This document shows positions 30,800-42,123 of a stretch of DNA of 64,000 nucleotides, piece by piece. The stretch spans positions 1 through 64,000 of the forward strand of contig JADLFL010000030.1 in NCBI GenBank assembly GCA_020845575.1, read 5' to 3'. The position numbers and the translations under genes are program-made. The notes under the pieces were generated by a model that saw only the letters and a program-made list of their open reading frames with translations, ran no database searches and was not told where the DNA came from. Origin of the DNA: Acidobacteriota bacterium (GTDB lineage: Bacteria > Acidobacteriota > Vicinamibacteria > Vicinamibacterales > Vicinamibacteraceae). Position 1 is the first letter of the stretch. Each line of letters begins with the position of its first letter.

Positions 30800-32521
30800 C
30801 TACACGTGTCGACTGCGGCGGAGGTAGCGGCGCAGCTGGTCGAGGGGGAGGCAGTTCAGGACATCGCCGGGTGAGAGCCAGGCGCGGCGGGCGGTGAACG
30901 TGGCCCAGTGGAGGTGCTCGAAACCCGCCACGGCGTGCGCGTCGCTGGACAGCACGATCTTCACGCCGCGATCGCGCGCCAGGCGCGCATGAGTGTCGTT
31001 CAGATCGCGGCGATGCGGCTGGCCGTTGATCTCCATGGCCACGCCCAGATCGGCCGCGCGTGCGATCACGGCTTCGATGTCGATGGCACTCGCCTCGCGC
31101 CGGAGCAGCATGCGTCCTGTCGGATGTCCGAGCACGTCGACGTACGGACACTCCAGCGCGCGGAGTACACGGTCGGTCATGCGCGCCGGCTCCTGCGACA
31201 GCCCCGAGTGGACCGACGCAATGACGATGTCGAGCTGGGCGAGGCAGTCGTCGGCGAGATCCATCGTGCCGTCGGTGCGGATGTCGCACTCGATGCCGGC
31301 CAGCAGCGTGATGCCCTCGACCTCGTCGTCGCAGGCCCTGATTGCCGCCGCGTGTGCCAGTGCACGCGTTTCATCGAGGCCATTGGCCATCGCGAGCGCC
31401 TGACTATGGTCGGTGATCGCGAGATAGCTCAGTCCGGCGTCGCGCGCGGCCATCGCCATCGCACGAATCGTGTCCTTACCGTCGGTGGCCGTCGTGTGGC
31501 AGTGCAGATCGCCGCGCAGATCCGCACGCTCGACGAGGAGAGGCAGCCCTTCGTCACGCGCGGCGTCGAACTCGCCACGGTTCTCGCGAAGCTCCGGCGC
31601 GATCCACGGCAGCCCCAGCGCCGCATAGATCTCCGCTTCCGTCTCCCCGGCCACACGCGTCTCATCGTCCACCCGGAACAGGCCGTACTCGTTCAGCTTC
31701 AGTCCCTGGCGCAGCGCGCGGTCCCGCAACTCGATGTTGTGTGCCTTGCTTCCGGTGAAGTACTGCTGTGCCGCGCCGCGCGATTCGGCAGGTACCAGGC
31801 GCAGATCGGCCTGCAGCCCCTTCGAGAGACGGACGCTGCTCCTGGTCGGCCCCTGTCCGAGCACGCGCTCCACGCGCGGGAACGACACGAAGTGCGCCAT
31901 CACCGCCGACGGCGCGGCCGTCGCGAGGACATCGAGATCGCCGCACGTCTCGGCGCCGCGCCGCAGGCTGCCCACGAGATCGAACGTGGCGTCCGGACAC
32001 GCGGCGCGCAGGTGGGTGAGCAGGGCATGCGCCTGCTGCCACACCTCCGAGGCAAGGTATCTGCCTGCGAAGGTCGCGTGATCCTCGATGGCCTTGGCGA
32101 GCGCGGCTTCCTTGCCGGGGCCCATGCCCTTGACCTTGCGGATCGTGCCGGCCGCAATGGCGGCGCGGAGATCGTCGATCGACCCGACGCCGAGCTCGCG
32201 GTACAGCAATGCCACCGTCTTCGGACCCACACCCTGCAGCCGCAACACGTCGAGCAGGCCTGTCGGAAACTCCGCCGCCAGTTCGCGATGGAACGACGAT
32301 ATGCCGGTCGCGGCGAGCTCTTCGATGCGCGCGGCGATGTCCTTGCCGATACCCGGCAGCGCGCGAAGGTCGGCAGCCGTGAAGTCCGCGACGCGCTCGC
32401 CCGTGTCGCGAATCACCTGTGACGCGTTGCGATACGCGCGGATCTTGAACGGGTTGTCGCCCCGGATCTCGAGCAGATCGCCAATCTCGGCGAGGACGCG
32501 GGCGATGGCGGTGTTCTCCAC
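30800..32521 (-). CDS. polX: Family X DNA polymerase/3'-5' exonuclease PolX
   Basis: Gap-filling repair polymerase with a C-terminal PHP nuclease domain; 573 residues, normal for bacterial PolX. Residues 1-150 hold helix-hairpin-helix modules (LRALPGIGKDIAARIEEL, LQGVGPKTVALLY). The nucleotidyltransferase site is GSLRRGAETCGDLDVLA with Asp195 and Asp197, and the third Asp is Asp239. The PHP domain opens with GDLHCHTTATDG (His340, His342), followed by AITDHSQALA, GIECDI, SVHSGLSQ and GHPTGRMLLRRE. GTG 32521 (VENTAIARVLAEIGDLLE) matches family starts. A second, decayed PolX-like gene lies at 40127-41884. Confidence 0.96.
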   Translation of the reverse strand: MENTAIARVLAEIGDLLEIRGDNPFKIRAYRNASQVIRDTGERVADFTAADLRALPGIGKDIAARIEELAATGISSFHRELAAEFPTGLLDVLRLQGVGPKTVALLYRELGVGSIDDLRAAIAAGTIRKVKGMGPGKEAALAKAIEDHATFAGRYLASEVWQQAHALLTHLRAACPDATFDLVGSLRRGAETCGDLDVLATAAPSAVMAHFVSFPRVERVLGQGPTRSSVRLSKGLQADLRLVPAESRGAAQQYFTGSKAHNIELRDRALRQGLKLNEYGLFRVDDETRVAGETEAEIYAALGLPWIAPELRENRGEFDAARDEGLPLLVERADLRGDLHCHTTATDGKDTIRAMAMAARDAGLSYLAITDHSQALAMANGLDETRALAHAAAIRACDDEVEGITLLAGIECDIRTDGTMDLADDCLAQLDIVIASVHSGLSQEPARMTDRVLRALECPYVDVLGHPTGRMLLRREASAIDIEAVIARAADLGVAMEINGQPHRRDLNDTHARLARDRGVKIVLSSDAHAVAGFEHLHWATFTARRAWLSPGDVLNCLPLDQLRRYLRRSRHV

Positions 32522-36729: not shown

Positions 36730-37652
36730 GCGGTGCAACAGAGCCTTCCCGCATCGTCGTCACGCGCGCGGGCCTGCACACCACGGTGCAGGACGCCGGT
36801 CGATGGGGCTATCAGCACGTGGGCGTGCCGGTCGGCGGTGCGCTCGATCTCGCCGCGCTGCGCCGGGCCAATGCGCTCGTGGGCAATCACCCCGACGAAG
36901 CAGGTCTCGAAGTGACGCTGGTCGGCTGCGCGCTCCGTGCAGAGGGGCCGGCGTGCGTGGCCGTGACAGGCGCGAGGTTCGCTGTGTCGGTGAACGGCGT
37001 ATCAGTGCCGCAGGACGAAGCACTGACCCTCGCTCCGGGCGACGAACTCGTGCTCGGCGCCAGGCTGCACGGTGCGCGAGCGTGTGTCGCCGTGCGGGGC
37101 GGACTCCAGCTACCCCTGGTGCTCGGCAGCCGGAGTGCGTGGCCGCTGGCGCCGCGGCGCGGTGCGCTTGCCGACGGGGCAATCCTGGCGATCGGCACGC
37201 GCACGGGAGGAAGTCCTCGCGTCGAACCGTGGCCGACGCCGCCGTTCGAGACGACGCTGCGTGTGATCCCGGCATCAGATGGGTGGGTGAATGCTGATGC
37301 GTTCGAAGCGCTGTGCGCAGGCGTGTACGTTGTGGCGTCGACCGCCAGCCGGATGGCCTATCCCCTCGACGGCCCCGCCGTGCCACTGGTCGTGCCGATG
37401 CGGCCCTCGAGCGGGACCGTCCACGGGGCGATCCAGGTATTGCCGTCGGGTAAGCCCGTGCTGCTCATGGCGGAGTGTCAGACCACGGGCGGGTATCCCG
37501 TGGTGGGCGTCGTGTATGGCGCGGACCTCACGCACGCCGCGCAGGTGGCGCCAGGTGAGTCCATCAGGTTCGTGGCCGGCACCCGCGCCGAAGCCGTCAT
37601 CGCCCTGCGTCAGCGTGACGGGACGGGGGAAGGCGGCAGCGTGCGGGGCTGA
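36726..37652 (+). CDS. pxpC: 5-oxoprolinase subunit PxpC (KipA-type)
   Basis: Biotin-dependent-carboxylase-like partner of PxpB. The 308-residue protein has GLHTTVQDAGRWGYQHVGVPVGGALD at the N-terminus, EVTLVGCALRAEG, and the C-terminal QVLPSGKPVLLMAECQTTGGYP and GADLTHAAQVAPGE segments. It ends the nagZ-led run; its last 43 bases overlap the 3' end of the convergent secretin gene. Confidence 0.93.
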   Translation: MSGATEPSRIVVTRAGLHTTVQDAGRWGYQHVGVPVGGALDLAALRRANALVGNHPDEAGLEVTLVGCALRAEGPACVAVTGARFAVSVNGVSVPQDEALTLAPGDELVLGARLHGARACVAVRGGLQLPLVLGSRSAWPLAPRRGALADGAILAIGTRTGGSPRVEPWPTPPFETTLRVIPASDGWVNADAFEALCAGVYVVASTASRMAYPLDGPAVPLVVPMRPSSGTVHGAIQVLPSGKPVLLMAECQTTGGYPVVGVVYGADLTHAAQVAPGESIRFVAGTRAEAVIALRQRDGTGEGGSVRG

Positions 37653-39433
37653 GCCGGTGCCGGCTGTTCCGGCAGGAACGGCACGCGCGGGAACGGTTCC
37701 TCTTCCGCGTCGACGGGAGGCTGCACGGGTCGCAGCGGCACGGGTGTGATGGCAGGACCGGCACCGGCGGCCCCACGCCCGGCGAGGAACGGACGCAGGT
37801 CGTCCTCCTGGAGGTCGAGCACGCGGACGATGCGTGGCGTGAGCATGAGGACGACGTCCGACTGCTGCGTCTCGCGTTCGTTACCGGCGAAGAGCCTGCC
37901 GATGAGCGGCAGGTTGCTCAGCCCGGGCACGCCTTTCATCACGCTGCGTTCGTTGTCGCGAATCAGGCCCGCGAGCAGGTTCGTCTCGCCGTCGTGCAGC
38001 CTGATCGTCGTGGCGATCGATCGCGTGTTGAACGTCGGCAGGCCCGAATAGCCCGTACCTGCGACGCTGCTCACCTCGATCTTCACTGCCAGGCTCACGT
38101 CCGCGTCGTGATGCGCGCGCGGCGTGATGTCGATGTTCACGCCGACATTCCGATACTGGAATGACGTGATGGGCTGCTGGTTGATGCCACCGCTCGCGAT
38201 CGGCGCGAACGTGACCTGCGGCACGGGGACCTCTTCACCGAACCTGGCCTGCGCGGGCAGGCCATCCGACGTGCGCAACTGCGGATTGGCGAGCACGCGC
38301 GTGTCGCTGTCCTGCTTGAGGAGCCTGTAGTACAGGCCGGGCAGGCTGGTGAAGAAGACGTCGCCGCGTCCGAGGTTCGCGAGCTGATCGAGGCTCAGTC
38401 CGCCGTCGCGGTTGACGTCCACCTGGCCGGCGATGCCGACGTCGTTGCCCGGCGAGAGGAGTTGCAGGCCGTACTGCCTGAAGCGCGTGCGATCGATCTC
38501 CAGCAGTTCGACGTCGATCACGATCTCCGGCCGTGCCTTGTCGATCGCGGCGATGAGCCGCGCCGCCGCCTCGACGCGCTCGGGGGAGTCCTTGATCGAG
38601 ATCGCATTGGTCGCGGTGATCGGCGACAGGCGCCGCGCGTCGACGACGACGCGCAGGAGATCGAGGGTCTCCTTGATGTCGGCGTTGCTCAGATAGAACG
38701 TACGAATGACATCTTCCTCGTACTCACGCCGCTTGGCGGCGGTGTCGGGGACGACGGCGACCGTACGGTCCGCCGTGGTTCGCCAGAACGACGCCGTCGC
38801 ACGCGTCACGGCATCGAGGGCCGCCGGCAGCGTGGCGCCGCGCAGGTCGATCGAGACGGGCACGCTGCGATAGTCGGGATCCAGGACGAGGCTGACGTCG
38901 GCAAAGCGCGCGATCGACGTGAGCACGTCGCGGCTGGCGGCGCTGCGGAACACGAGCGAATCGGGAAGCGTGACGTCGGGCAGCGTCCGCCCCACGGGAG
39001 CGAGCGTGCGCGCGCGAGAAATCAGGGACTCGAGGCGCGTGCCGCTCTCGCCGCCGACGGCCACCTTCGTCCGGAGGATGTGGCGGGTCTCGTTGACGGC
39101 AACTGCTGCATCGCCGTTCTCGGGGTGCAGTTCCAGGGCGATCCGGAATTCGACGAGTGCCTCGTCATGCCTGCCGGTGCCGGAGAGCCGGCGGCCCTTC
39201 GCGAGGTGCTGCGCGGCGGCGCGCACTTTCGCGCGCGTGAGGACGGCGGCGATCTCCGCGTCGTCGGGGCGCAACACCAGCGCCTGCGCGTAGGCAACGA
39301 TGGCCTTGTCGTAGTCGTGGCGCTGCTCGGCGAGTTGTCCGACGCGATACGGACCAGGCGCCGTCGCGCACGACGCCAGCGTGCAGGCCAGTGCCGCGAC
39401 CGCGACGAACGCGAGACGCGTGCGGCGCTCCAT
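37610..39433 (-). CDS. Lipoprotein secretin with N-terminal TPR (type II/III secretion family)
   Basis: A 607-residue outer-membrane secretin. It has a signal peptide with lipobox (ALACTLASCATAP; Cys lipidation) and TPR-like repeats at about 30-110 (DYDKAIVAYAQALVLRPDDAE, DEALVEFRIALELHPENGDAA). A secretin N0/STN-like module lies at about 155-230, an N1 module with TFYLSNADIKETLDLLRVV, and the secretin barrel domain at about 320-560 with GVNIDITPRAH, LLAGLIRDNERSV and VPGLSNLPLIGRLF. The tail is Pro-rich. It differs from pilQ at 57588 by the TPR and lipobox. Four bases separate it from the LolA-like gene; no other secretion genes are nearby. Confidence 0.85.
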   Translation of the reverse strand: MERRTRLAFVAVAALACTLASCATAPGPYRVGQLAEQRHDYDKAIVAYAQALVLRPDDAEIAAVLTRAKVRAAAQHLAKGRRLSGTGRHDEALVEFRIALELHPENGDAAVAVNETRHILRTKVAVGGESGTRLESLISRARTLAPVGRTLPDVTLPDSLVFRSAASRDVLTSIARFADVSLVLDPDYRSVPVSIDLRGATLPAALDAVTRATASFWRTTADRTVAVVPDTAAKRREYEEDVIRTFYLSNADIKETLDLLRVVVDARRLSPITATNAISIKDSPERVEAAARLIAAIDKARPEIVIDVELLEIDRTRFRQYGLQLLSPGNDVGIAGQVDVNRDGGLSLDQLANLGRGDVFFTSLPGLYYRLLKQDSDTRVLANPQLRTSDGLPAQARFGEEVPVPQVTFAPIASGGINQQPITSFQYRNVGVNIDITPRAHHDADVSLAVKIEVSSVAGTGYSGLPTFNTRSIATTIRLHDGETNLLAGLIRDNERSVMKGVPGLSNLPLIGRLFAGNERETQQSDVVLMLTPRIVRVLDLQEDDLRPFLAGRGAAGAGPAITPVPLRPVQPPVDAEEEPFPRVPFLPEQPAPAQPRTLPPSPVPSR

Positions 39434-39437
39434 CACG

Positions 39438-40103
39438 TCAGTCCTGCGAGACGACATCGACGCCCCTGGGCATGGAGAACACGAATCGGCTGTCGGGCAC
39501 GCCGACATTCTCGCGCAGATTCGTGAACGTGAACGTGGACGTCCCGCCCTGGCCATCCACGACCACCAGTTGACGCCACGCGAGCGTGCTCGCGTCGACC
39601 ACCAGCGTGAGCGTCTCGTACTCCTGTTCCTTGCGCACGGGGCGCAGTTCGAGCGCCCGCGTCCCGGACGAGCCTTGTGGTGCCGGTACTTCCTTGACCG
39701 TGAAGTCGCGCAGCAGGTCGCCGCGGCCGGCCAGGAAGACAATCGGCGTGGGGACGCGGCCGGCCTCGGGCATCGCGCTGACGCGCACCTGCCTGTCGGC
39801 GGGCACGTAGAAGTAGATCCGTGTGCCGTCGGAGATGAACAGCTTCTTCTCCGGCGACTCGTAGTCCCAGCGCATGCGACCCGGCTTGCGAATGGCGACG
39901 GTGCCCTTCTCGACGGTGCGTCGCTTCAGCACACCTCCGACGTAGGCCTGCTCGAACGACGCCGTGAAGTCGCGCACCTGCTGGTAGTGTGCCTGGACGG
40001 CCTTGGCGAGGCTCTCGGTTTCCACCTGCGCGTGAGCATGTGACGCCGGCAGCGACACGGCGACGAGCGCGAGGCAGGCCGGCAGCAGCGAACGTCGAGT
40101 CAT
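39438..40103 (-). CDS. LolA-like periplasmic lipoprotein carrier
   Basis: A 221-residue exported protein: signal peptide MTRRSLLPACLALVAVSLPA, cleaved after about residue 25. It has a LolA-type beta fold with QVRDFTASFEQAYVGG, GTVAIRKPGRMRWDYESPEKKLFISDG and IVFLAGRGDLLRDF. LolA ferries lipoproteins from the inner to the outer membrane. Its neighbour downstream is a predicted lipoprotein secretin, a natural client. ATG 40103 is chosen because GGAGA lies 6 bases upstream; ATG 40130 would overlap the preceding stop (ATGA). It may be a paralog of the main LolA. Confidence 0.82.
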   Translation of the reverse strand: MTRRSLLPACLALVAVSLPASHAHAQVETESLAKAVQAHYQQVRDFTASFEQAYVGGVLKRRTVEKGTVAIRKPGRMRWDYESPEKKLFISDGTRIYFYVPADRQVRVSAMPEAGRVPTPIVFLAGRGDLLRDFTVKEVPAPQGSSGTRALELRPVRKEQEYETLTLVVDASTLAWRQLVVVDGQGGTSTFTFTNLRENVGVPDSRFVFSMPRGVDVVSQD

Positions 40104-40126: not shown

Positions 40127-41884
40127 TCATTCGGACCTGGGCAGGCCCGGCCCTCCGGGCCCGACCATCCCGGTGCTGGCGACGACGCCGGCACGTTTGG
40201 CGGCGACGAAGGCGCGGATGTCGTCGATCCCGCGTGTGTTCAGGACGCGATCCTTCGTGAGCGCCGCGCGCCGCGCCAGCCCGACACCGAAACGCATCTG
40301 GCGCCCGAGGCGATCGGCCATGTGGCAGTCGCTGTCGATGACGAGCGTCGCGCCGATGGTGCCCGCCAGTTCCGCGAGCGGTGCGTCGAGGTCCATGTGC
40401 CCGGGCGCGCCGTCGATCTCGACCGCCGTCCCCGTGCGAGCGGCCTCTTCGAACAGACGCGCGAAGGGCAGGGCGTAGCCGGGCTGCCGGCCGGGCGATC
40501 TGTTGGCGGGGTGCGTGATCACGTTGACGAGCGGATGGCGCAGGACGCGCTCGTAACGCTGCATGATGCGCGCGGGCGAGTGGCCGTGGCTCTCGTGCAT
40601 CGATGCCAGCACGATGTCGAGCCGTTCGAGCAGCGAGTCCGGCACGTCGAGCGACCCGTCCTCGAGGATGTCGCACTCGATGCCCTGGAGGATCGTGATG
40701 TCAGGCGCCAGGGCGCGGACGGCGGCGATCTCCTCGGCCTGCGCCGCGATGCGCTCGAGCGTCAACACCCGTGCGGCCCTCGCCGTTGGCGAATGATCGG
40801 TGATCGCCATGTAGCGGTAGCCGAGCGCGCGCGCGGCGTGCACCATGCCGGCGACGCTGTCGCGACCGTCGCTGTACACGGTGTGCATGTGCAGGTCCCC
40901 CTGGATGTCGCTGACCTCGACCAGTTGCGGCAACTCGCCACGCACTGCCGCGTCGAGCACGCCGGGACGCGCGCGGAGTTCCACGGGGATGAGCGGGAGG
41001 TCGAGTCGTGCGTACAGGGTGGCCTCGTCAGCCAGCGGGATCGGGGTCTCGCGGTACCGCAGCGCGTCGCGCGTGAGCGTGAGGTGCCGCTCCGCCGCGT
41101 GCGCCCGCAGCGCGCGGACGTGCGCGCGTGGACCGGTGTACCAGGTGAGGCTCGTCGCTGCCGCGTCGGGCGTCACCGCGTGGACGACGATCGGCTCCGG
41201 ATCGGCACCGATGGCGAGCGATCGCTGGCCTGCGGCGATGAGGACGTCGCGTGGCAGGGCACCCGCCGCGCGGCGAATCCAGGCATCAGGGTCGCCGGTG
41301 ACGGCGAGCATCGCCACATCGGGGCTCACGGGATCGGTGCGGCGCAGGCCGCCGACCTGGTGCCACGCGTCTGGGGCGCCAGCGGCTGCCGACAACTCAC
41401 GCCGCGCCTGCTTGGCCTGCATCCACGCCCGCCCCAGCGGGACGAGCGCATCGTCGGGTGAATCGGGAACCAGGGTGTCGACGAGATCCGGCGGGAGCAG
41501 GCGTTCGAGGTCGGCGTCGAGCAGCAGGTCCTCGTCGGCGATGCGATGCCGCAGAGGATGCTGACCGTCGCGGATGAGGGCGCGCCCCCCGGCGGGCAGC
41601 CGGCGCAGGAAGTGCGCAACCTCGTCGTGGTCGGCGCGCCGCAGGCGGTCGAGCAGTTCGACGTCGCGCGCGGTGATGAACCCCTGGCCTTCGAGCGCAC
41701 GACGGACGAGGCTCCACGGCGTTCGCGGTTGATGGTCGAGCACGCGACGGATTGACGTCGATACCTGCGCGAGGTGCAGCGCCTCGGAGGCACGCCCCAC
41801 CGCCCGCGCGAGCCCAGCCATGTGGTCCAGCGTGTCGGCAACGACGAGAGGCGAGCGACGACGGAGGTAGAACAGAACCTCCAT
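40127..41884 (-). CDS. PolX-like protein with decayed polymerase site and intact PHP domain
   Basis: A 585-residue relative of PolX. The C-terminal PHP phosphoesterase is intact: GDLHMHTVYSDG (His332, His334), AITDHSPTARAA, GIECDILEDGSLDV, ASMHESHGHS, THPANRSPGR, IDSDCHM. The PolX-specific linker is also recognisable (YARLDLPLIPVELRARPGVLD). At the place of the catalytic GDLDVLA it reads SPDVAMLA, so the second Asp is Ala191, and the third Asp region (VVHAVTPD) also lacks it. The N-terminal HhH motifs are not evident. It should not polymerise; a stand-alone phosphoesterase or nuclease role is likely. ATG 41884. Heads the unit with lolA-like and secretin genes. Confidence 0.8.
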   Translation of the reverse strand: MEVLFYLRRRSPLVVADTLDHMAGLARAVGRASEALHLAQVSTSIRRVLDHQPRTPWSLVRRALEGQGFITARDVELLDRLRRADHDEVAHFLRRLPAGGRALIRDGQHPLRHRIADEDLLLDADLERLLPPDLVDTLVPDSPDDALVPLGRAWMQAKQARRELSAAAGAPDAWHQVGGLRRTDPVSPDVAMLAVTGDPDAWIRRAAGALPRDVLIAAGQRSLAIGADPEPIVVHAVTPDAAATSLTWYTGPRAHVRALRAHAAERHLTLTRDALRYRETPIPLADEATLYARLDLPLIPVELRARPGVLDAAVRGELPQLVEVSDIQGDLHMHTVYSDGRDSVAGMVHAARALGYRYMAITDHSPTARAARVLTLERIAAQAEEIAAVRALAPDITILQGIECDILEDGSLDVPDSLLERLDIVLASMHESHGHSPARIMQRYERVLRHPLVNVITHPANRSPGRQPGYALPFARLFEEAARTGTAVEIDGAPGHMDLDAPLAELAGTIGATLVIDSDCHMADRLGRQMRFGVGLARRAALTKDRVLNTRGIDDIRAFVAAKRAGVVASTGMVGPGGPGLPRSE

Positions 41885-42018: not shown

Positions 42019-42094
<76 letters not shown>

Positions 42095-42123
42095 CACACC
42101 CCACACGCCGAACCGGGATCCGC

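Follow-up and report, generated by a model that had tools for sequence, protein, structure and literature searches.

Why should a soil acidobacterium carry, about 8 kb from its canonical polX, a second PolX-like gene in which the catalytic centre of the polymerase is altered? We addressed this question in the window, the whole stretch of 64,000 nucleotides that was analysed. The initial annotation had described the second gene, here called ncPolX, as a duplicated repair enzyme that had lost its polymerase aspartates, kept its PHP domain and apparently become a stand-alone PHP phosphoesterase. The features of the locus are listed in Table 1.

Table 1. Features of the ncPolX locus, in window positions, with the evidence for each
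Feature	Position	Strand	Evidence
ncPolX (585 aa), PolX homologue with a dead polymerase and a PHP domain	40127..41884	-	ORF, translation, Pfam PHP and DNA_pol_B_thumb, identity to resident PolX, PolX fold
ncPolX residues 1-147, degenerate 8-kDa/HhH N-terminal region	41444..41884	-	hhalign, motif and lysine counts
ncPolX residues 148-245, palm; triad changed to D189, A191, V233	41150..41443	-	Alignment of triad columns
ncPolX residues 246-322, thumb and linker to PHP domain	40919..41149	-	Pfam DNA_pol_B_thumb E 1.5e-9
ncPolX residues 323-566, PHP domain with all nine metal ligands	40187..40918	-	Pfam PHP E 3.7e-10; ligands HHDHEHHDH
ncPolX residues 491-496, DGAPGH; D491 and H496 at N498 and R503 (B. 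subtilis numbering)	40397..40414	-	Column counts
Resident canonical PolX, DDD triad, HhH motifs	30800..32521	-	NF006375 477 bits, cut-off 426
lolA, downstream neighbour of ncPolX	39438..40103	-	Pfam LolA E 3.3e-26
Secretin with TPR, next neighbour after lolA	37610..39433	-	Pfam Secretin E 2.3e-39, TPR; start codon from translation

The reading frame of ncPolX runs on the minus strand from an ATG to a TGA codon and encodes 585 residues. A longer reading from an in-frame GTG at 42106 would cross a tRNA-Ala gene (CGC) that lies divergently on the plus strand at 42019-42094, which favours the ATG at 41884 as the start. A frameshift or an assembly artefact was ruled out as the source of ncPolX, since 59 genomes of the order contain orthologues.

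Pairwise BLAST aligned ncPolX with the resident PolX at 38% identity over 420 residues (E 2e-53), a kinship that is therefore not due to chance. The likeness of the linkers reported earlier is real (LYARLDLPLIPVELR versus IYAALGLPWIAPELR), a complete PHP metal site (HHDHEHHDH) was seen, and the description of ncPolX as a second PolX-like gene thus holds. On the curated PolX equivalog NF006375, ncPolX scored 269 bits, below the cut-off of 426 bits. Pfam matched all domains of the resident PolX and only the thumb and PHP domains of ncPolX; the palm and 8-kDa (HHH_8) models gave no Pfam match in ncPolX, and a Pfam search with its first 239 residues alone also gave none. The closest solved structures by sequence were the PolX proteins of T. 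thermophilus (E 2e-59) and D. radiodurans (E 6e-44).

The AlphaFold model of ncPolX (pLDDT 84.6, pTM 0.79), in which confidence was low in parts of residues 1-147, has a whole PolX fold, including the PHP domain. Superposition on D. radiodurans PolX gave a Z score of 37.7 with an rmsd of 3.0 over 405 residues, and superposition on T. thermophilus PolX gave a Z score of 40.9 over 498 residues with an rmsd of 13.5 across domains, indicating that the domain orientations differ. The N-terminus of ncPolX matched that of canonical PolX in a profile comparison (hhalign 96%, E 4e-9), and an unrelated N-terminal fold was ruled out by this comparison together with the model. No site with three acidic residues was seen. 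As the palm and thumb folds are still present in the model, the term 'stand-alone' does not fit the protein.

We then aligned the columns of the catalytic triad. The polymerase centre reads GDLDVLA in the resident PolX and SPDVAMLA in ncPolX, where D189 is kept, A191 takes the place of the second aspartate and V233 that of the third, in agreement with the losses first reported. This single triad aspartate is kept in the genus of the window. Columns were counted over 40 sequences of the ncPolX clade, 117 canonical PolX sequences and 10 other noncanonical ones; the 40 clade sequences share one ancestry, and counts among them do not represent independent events. At least one triad acid was altered in all 40 clade members, the combinations being DEG (9), DAV (5), DTT (4), DAT (4), DST (3) and others, and the loss of aspartates proposed to be clade-wide is indeed so. 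The dNTP-binding asparagine (N279 of Pol beta) is V256 in ncPolX of the window and was never present in the clade, in which the column holds a hydrophobic or other residue. Of the former dNTP pocket, the GxLRR and TG motifs are for the most part retained and nearly invariant in the clade.

Losses were equally extensive in the N-terminal region. The three HhH motifs, which read LPGIGKD, QGVGPKT and KGMGPGK in the resident PolX, were absent from all 40 clade members, whereas the PolX of D. radiodurans and the other noncanonical rows kept recognisable HhH motifs. The N-terminal region has 0-2 lysines in the clade, where canonical PolX proteins of the order have 5-11, and ncPolX in the window has none in its first 150 residues. 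Fewer than 40 residues precede the palm in 15 of the 40 members, which start at the palm and have no N-terminal domain. The dRP-lyase activity of the 8-kDa domain relies on a catalytic lysine; with the N-terminal lysines gone, this activity has probably also been lost in the clade, judging from the sequences.

In contrast to these regions, all nine ligands of the PHP metal site were intact in 40/40 clade members, in keeping with the complete site described at the outset. The surroundings of the metal site were remodelled. Positions fixed specifically in the clade include N461, D491, G492, H496 and S518, and the pocket carries the signature EIDGAPxHLD, with a histidine at the position of the DNA-guiding arginine. 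In B. subtilis numbering, which was set through a Bacillus-type row by its offset from the E-L-N motif, N498 is replaced by aspartate (D491) in all 40 members and R503 by histidine (H496) in all 40. Arginine occupied the latter position in every canonical (117/117) and every other noncanonical (10/10) PolX, and the asparagine was kept in 10/10 of the other noncanonical rows. Pairwise BLAST also paired H496 of ncPolX with R504 of the resident PolX without a gap. F440 was never a phenylalanine in the clade (0/40), and R474 was an arginine in just 15/40, being Q467 in ncPolX of the window.

These replacements fall on residues of known importance, since mutants N498A and R503A of B. subtilis PolX have AP-endonuclease efficiencies lowered 514- and 1674-fold, respectively; their exonuclease activity is also lowered, and F440A and R474A behave alike (PMC6616362). 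Not all of the pocket has changed, however. R469 was kept in 38/40 members, the K545 position is basic (arginine in 40/40), and T. thermophilus PolX itself has an aspartate at the N498 position. Net charge of the PHP domain did not differ between the clade and canonical PolX (-3.0 versus -2.8 per 100 residues), and any argument on the substrate therefore rests on the specific residues. PHP-only paralogues of the same order (L214, L215, L216) carry EIDGDPARQDL or a similar sequence, in which the aspartate and glycine are present and the arginine is kept; these paralogues were ruled out as the source of the histidine signature because of that arginine.

We next considered where the clade occurs and how it may have arisen. 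The orthologues span six families of the order, and within the searches made the clade was found only in Vicinamibacterales (Acidobacteriota). Named matches belonged to Acidobacteriota subdivision 6 or Vicinamibacteraceae; the protein of one record labelled Candidatus Sulfopaludibacter was removed when identical sequences were merged, since it duplicated one from this order, presumably that of G112. When 396 Acidobacteriota genomes were searched with the profile, full-length members scored 641-817 bits, one partial member 506 bits and the best outsider 488 bits; no clade member came from outside the order. In a tree of 92 rows the clade had full SH-aLRT support and a long stem, and stood apart from the resident polX lineage. 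Forcing the clade and resident polX together was not rejected (AU p 0.163), and neither was a common clade with the noncanonical PolX of Deinococcus and rhizobia (AU p 0.357). The tree thus gives no support to a recent tandem duplication of resident polX, and the duplication proposed earlier stands only in part: the clade is not nested in the resident lineage, but a grouping of the two is compatible with the data. Some near-complete genomes (e.g. G007, G128) carry ncPolX and have no match to a canonical PolX.

The same searches returned other unusual relatives. In another acidobacterial family the PolX palm (approximately 199-293) fell outside the model match (G165:C98, G180:C18, G205:C5), and these genes possibly encode independent noncanonical PolX proteins. 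Short matches that reach no further than about position 150 of the PolX model (G185:C27, G232:C31, G341:C15, G242:C6, G289:C401 and others) apparently represent stand-alone 8-kDa/HhH proteins with neither palm nor PHP domain.

The start codon of lolA lies 23 nt after the ncPolX stop codon, and in all 56 testable genomes lolA lay downstream on that strand, either close by or past a gene-sized gap of ~2 kb. Canonical polX, also on this strand, came 6-27 kb further downstream in all 24 genomes that could be tested. The conservation anticipated for the lolA/secretin neighbourhood was therefore borne out, but relatives lacking ncPolX have lolA and the secretin at the same locus. As the locus persists without ncPolX, it is weak evidence for a function, including one in the envelope, and a functional link to lolA and the secretin was dropped as a main argument. 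The arrangement reflects synteny common to the order and is consistent with co-transcription.

Two further features of this region were observed. The gap between ncPolX and lolA can hold a gene for a multi-pass membrane protein (L039:12427-14367, L048:3992-5911), which looks DUF2723-like on our own reading of the sequence rather than by a profile search; genes of this kind precede lolA in some genomes without ncPolX (L207, L212). On the other side of the secretin, relatives have two genes separating it from pxpC, namely murB and one of murA type (L033:8246-10484, L039:7528-9890). In the window the flanking genes on the pxpC and secretin sides abut and overlap at 37610-37652 with no such genes between them, and neither L033 protein had a match anywhere in the window genome (95.8% complete). 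One gene of the EPSP-synthase family was present in this genome and two or more in most relatives. Either this otherwise essential pair has truly been lost or relocated, or there is a gap in assembly or binning.

How, then, is ncPolX best understood? We propose, with a probability of roughly 0.6, that ncPolX is a neofunctionalised, PolX-derived, metal-dependent PHP phosphoesterase that would no longer be an efficient DNA-end nuclease. The sequences show that the catalytic centre of the polymerase, the HhH motifs and the lysines of the N-terminus have been lost and that the DNA-guiding residues of the PHP domain have been exchanged for a fixed set (N461, D491, G492 and H496), with strong constraint on the metal site and the PHP domain. 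Divalent metals in the PHP pocket would activate a water molecule for the hydrolysis of a phosphate ester, while the palm-thumb half, in which GxLRR and TG largely remain, would serve as a scaffold or at most as a ligand-binding module. The substrate would be neither a DNA 3' end nor an AP site but some other phospho-compound, for example a small nucleotide or a phosphate linked to a sugar or a lipid. The altered triad, intact PHP ligands and missing HhH motifs (40/40 each), the pocket replacements, the loss of lysines and the constraint on the PHP domain described below favour this proposal; the retained R469 and basic K545 position, the aspartate of T. thermophilus PolX, the equal PHP charge and the distribution of Ku speak against it. 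A wider proposal is more tentative, its chances being a little short of even: throughout this acidobacterial order, a PolX lineage would have become a metabolic phosphoesterase with a non-DNA substrate and a fixed EIDGAPxHLD pocket, after the residues for polymerase activity, lyase activity and DNA guiding had all been given up.

Alternatively, ncPolX could be an ordinary noncanonical PolX, polymerase-dead but acting in repair and perhaps end joining as a 3'-5' exonuclease or a cleaner of 3' ends, with pocket changes that only tune its substrate (for example to single-stranded DNA or RNA ends). Ku was found in 17/20 genomes with ncPolX and in 20/41 without it (p 0.011, uncorrected for kinship), which keeps a role in DNA repair alive. 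The metal site and the basic residues at R469 and K545 would suit a nuclease, the fold is shared with D. radiodurans PolX, itself an exonuclease (PMC9226535), and the common clade with Deinococcus and rhizobial sequences was not rejected. However, the 8-kDa domain is conserved in 95.3% of PolX (PMC9226535), whereas in this clade the HhH motifs are gone and the N-terminal domain is frequently missing altogether, and N498, R503 and F440 are replaced throughout the clade, unlike in the other noncanonical PolX that we examined. We therefore regard a role of this kind as unlikely, although far from negligible.

Constraint along the protein bears on the remaining alternatives. Mean pairwise identity in the clade was 0.61 for the PHP domain, 0.32 for the palm and 0.29 for the N-terminus, compared with 0.63, 0.57 and 0.59, respectively, in the canonical PolX proteins of the order. 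When species within the genus were compared, the PHP domain had a dN of 0.08-0.11 against a dS of 0.7-1.0, and the thumb was the fastest part of ncPolX, with a dN of 0.28-0.36. The PHP domain is thus as conserved as in canonical PolX while the rest has drifted, and its dN is far below dS, which indicates selection on a PHP enzyme. The near-invariant GxLRR and TG motifs could also be explained by a regulatory or scaffold protein whose palm-fingers remnant binds a nucleotide and whose PHP metal is mainly structural or sensing, but the invariance of all nine catalytic ligands and the drift of the palm beside a PHP domain that is the most constrained part make this improbable. Fast drift of the polymerase and N-terminal parts, and a local duplication that was not rejected, would also fit a decaying, functionless duplicate of polX, a reading that conservation largely refutes and that we consider very improbable, given the open frame and PHP ligands kept across six families, the low dN of the PHP domain and the genomes in which ncPolX has no canonical counterpart.

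The value of their PHP nuclease for repair is thought to explain why noncanonical PolX proteins persist. If the phosphoesterase proposal is correct, it would show that a PHP domain can take on another reaction while still part of a polymerase, in a clade that has given up DNA-binding parts and DNA-guiding residues under strong constraint on the metal site. The switch from arginine to histidine would be a single, directly testable change of specificity, and 'PolX' would be a misleading annotation for such genes.

Comparison with known systems places ncPolX as follows. It resembles canonical PolX (the resident protein and that of T. thermophilus, 3au2) in whole-length homology, fold and PHP metal site, but canonical PolX retains the DDD triad, the HhH motifs and the DNA-guiding PHP residues that ncPolX has lost. 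The PHP fold is shared with stand-alone phosphoesterases, namely E. coli YcdX (1m65; Z 28.3 and an rmsd of 2.2 over 222 residues) and a histidinol phosphate phosphatase (2yxo; Z 22.4, rmsd 3.0). Both are single-domain enzymes, whereas ncPolX is multi-domain, and its sequence is far nearer to the PHP domain of PolX (T. thermophilus E 4e-42, versus E 4e-9 for YcdX). A 2026 survey described Actinobacterial PolX-like proteins without a polymerase domain (PMC12926913); these likewise combine a PolX-type PHP domain with the absence of a working polymerase, but the whole polymerase domain is missing from them, while ncPolX keeps palm and thumb.

The closest parallel is noncanonical PolX, a polymerase-dead class with an active PHP exonuclease that makes up 27.5% of prokaryotic PolX and can share a genome with a canonical PolX; exonuclease activity without polymerase activity was demonstrated experimentally for two Deinococcus proteins (PMC9226535). 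Sequences from Acidobacteria are mentioned in that study as well. Like D. radiodurans PolX (PDB 2w9m), ncPolX has an altered triad, no dNTP-site asparagine, intact PHP ligands and a PolX fold. A dead polymerase joined to a live PHP domain is therefore not new. The suggestion that a repair enzyme had turned phosphoesterase is supported in part: a shift away from DNA is backed by the loss of HhH motifs, N-terminal lysines and F440 and by the N498D and R503H replacements. The clade differs from noncanonical PolX in having neither HhH motifs nor the usual N-terminal lysines, in lacking the N-terminal domain in 15/40 members, and in its replacement of N498, R503 and F440, the first two of which the other rows keep (10/10). 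The clade is set apart by its remodelled pocket and by the loss of its DNA-binding motifs.
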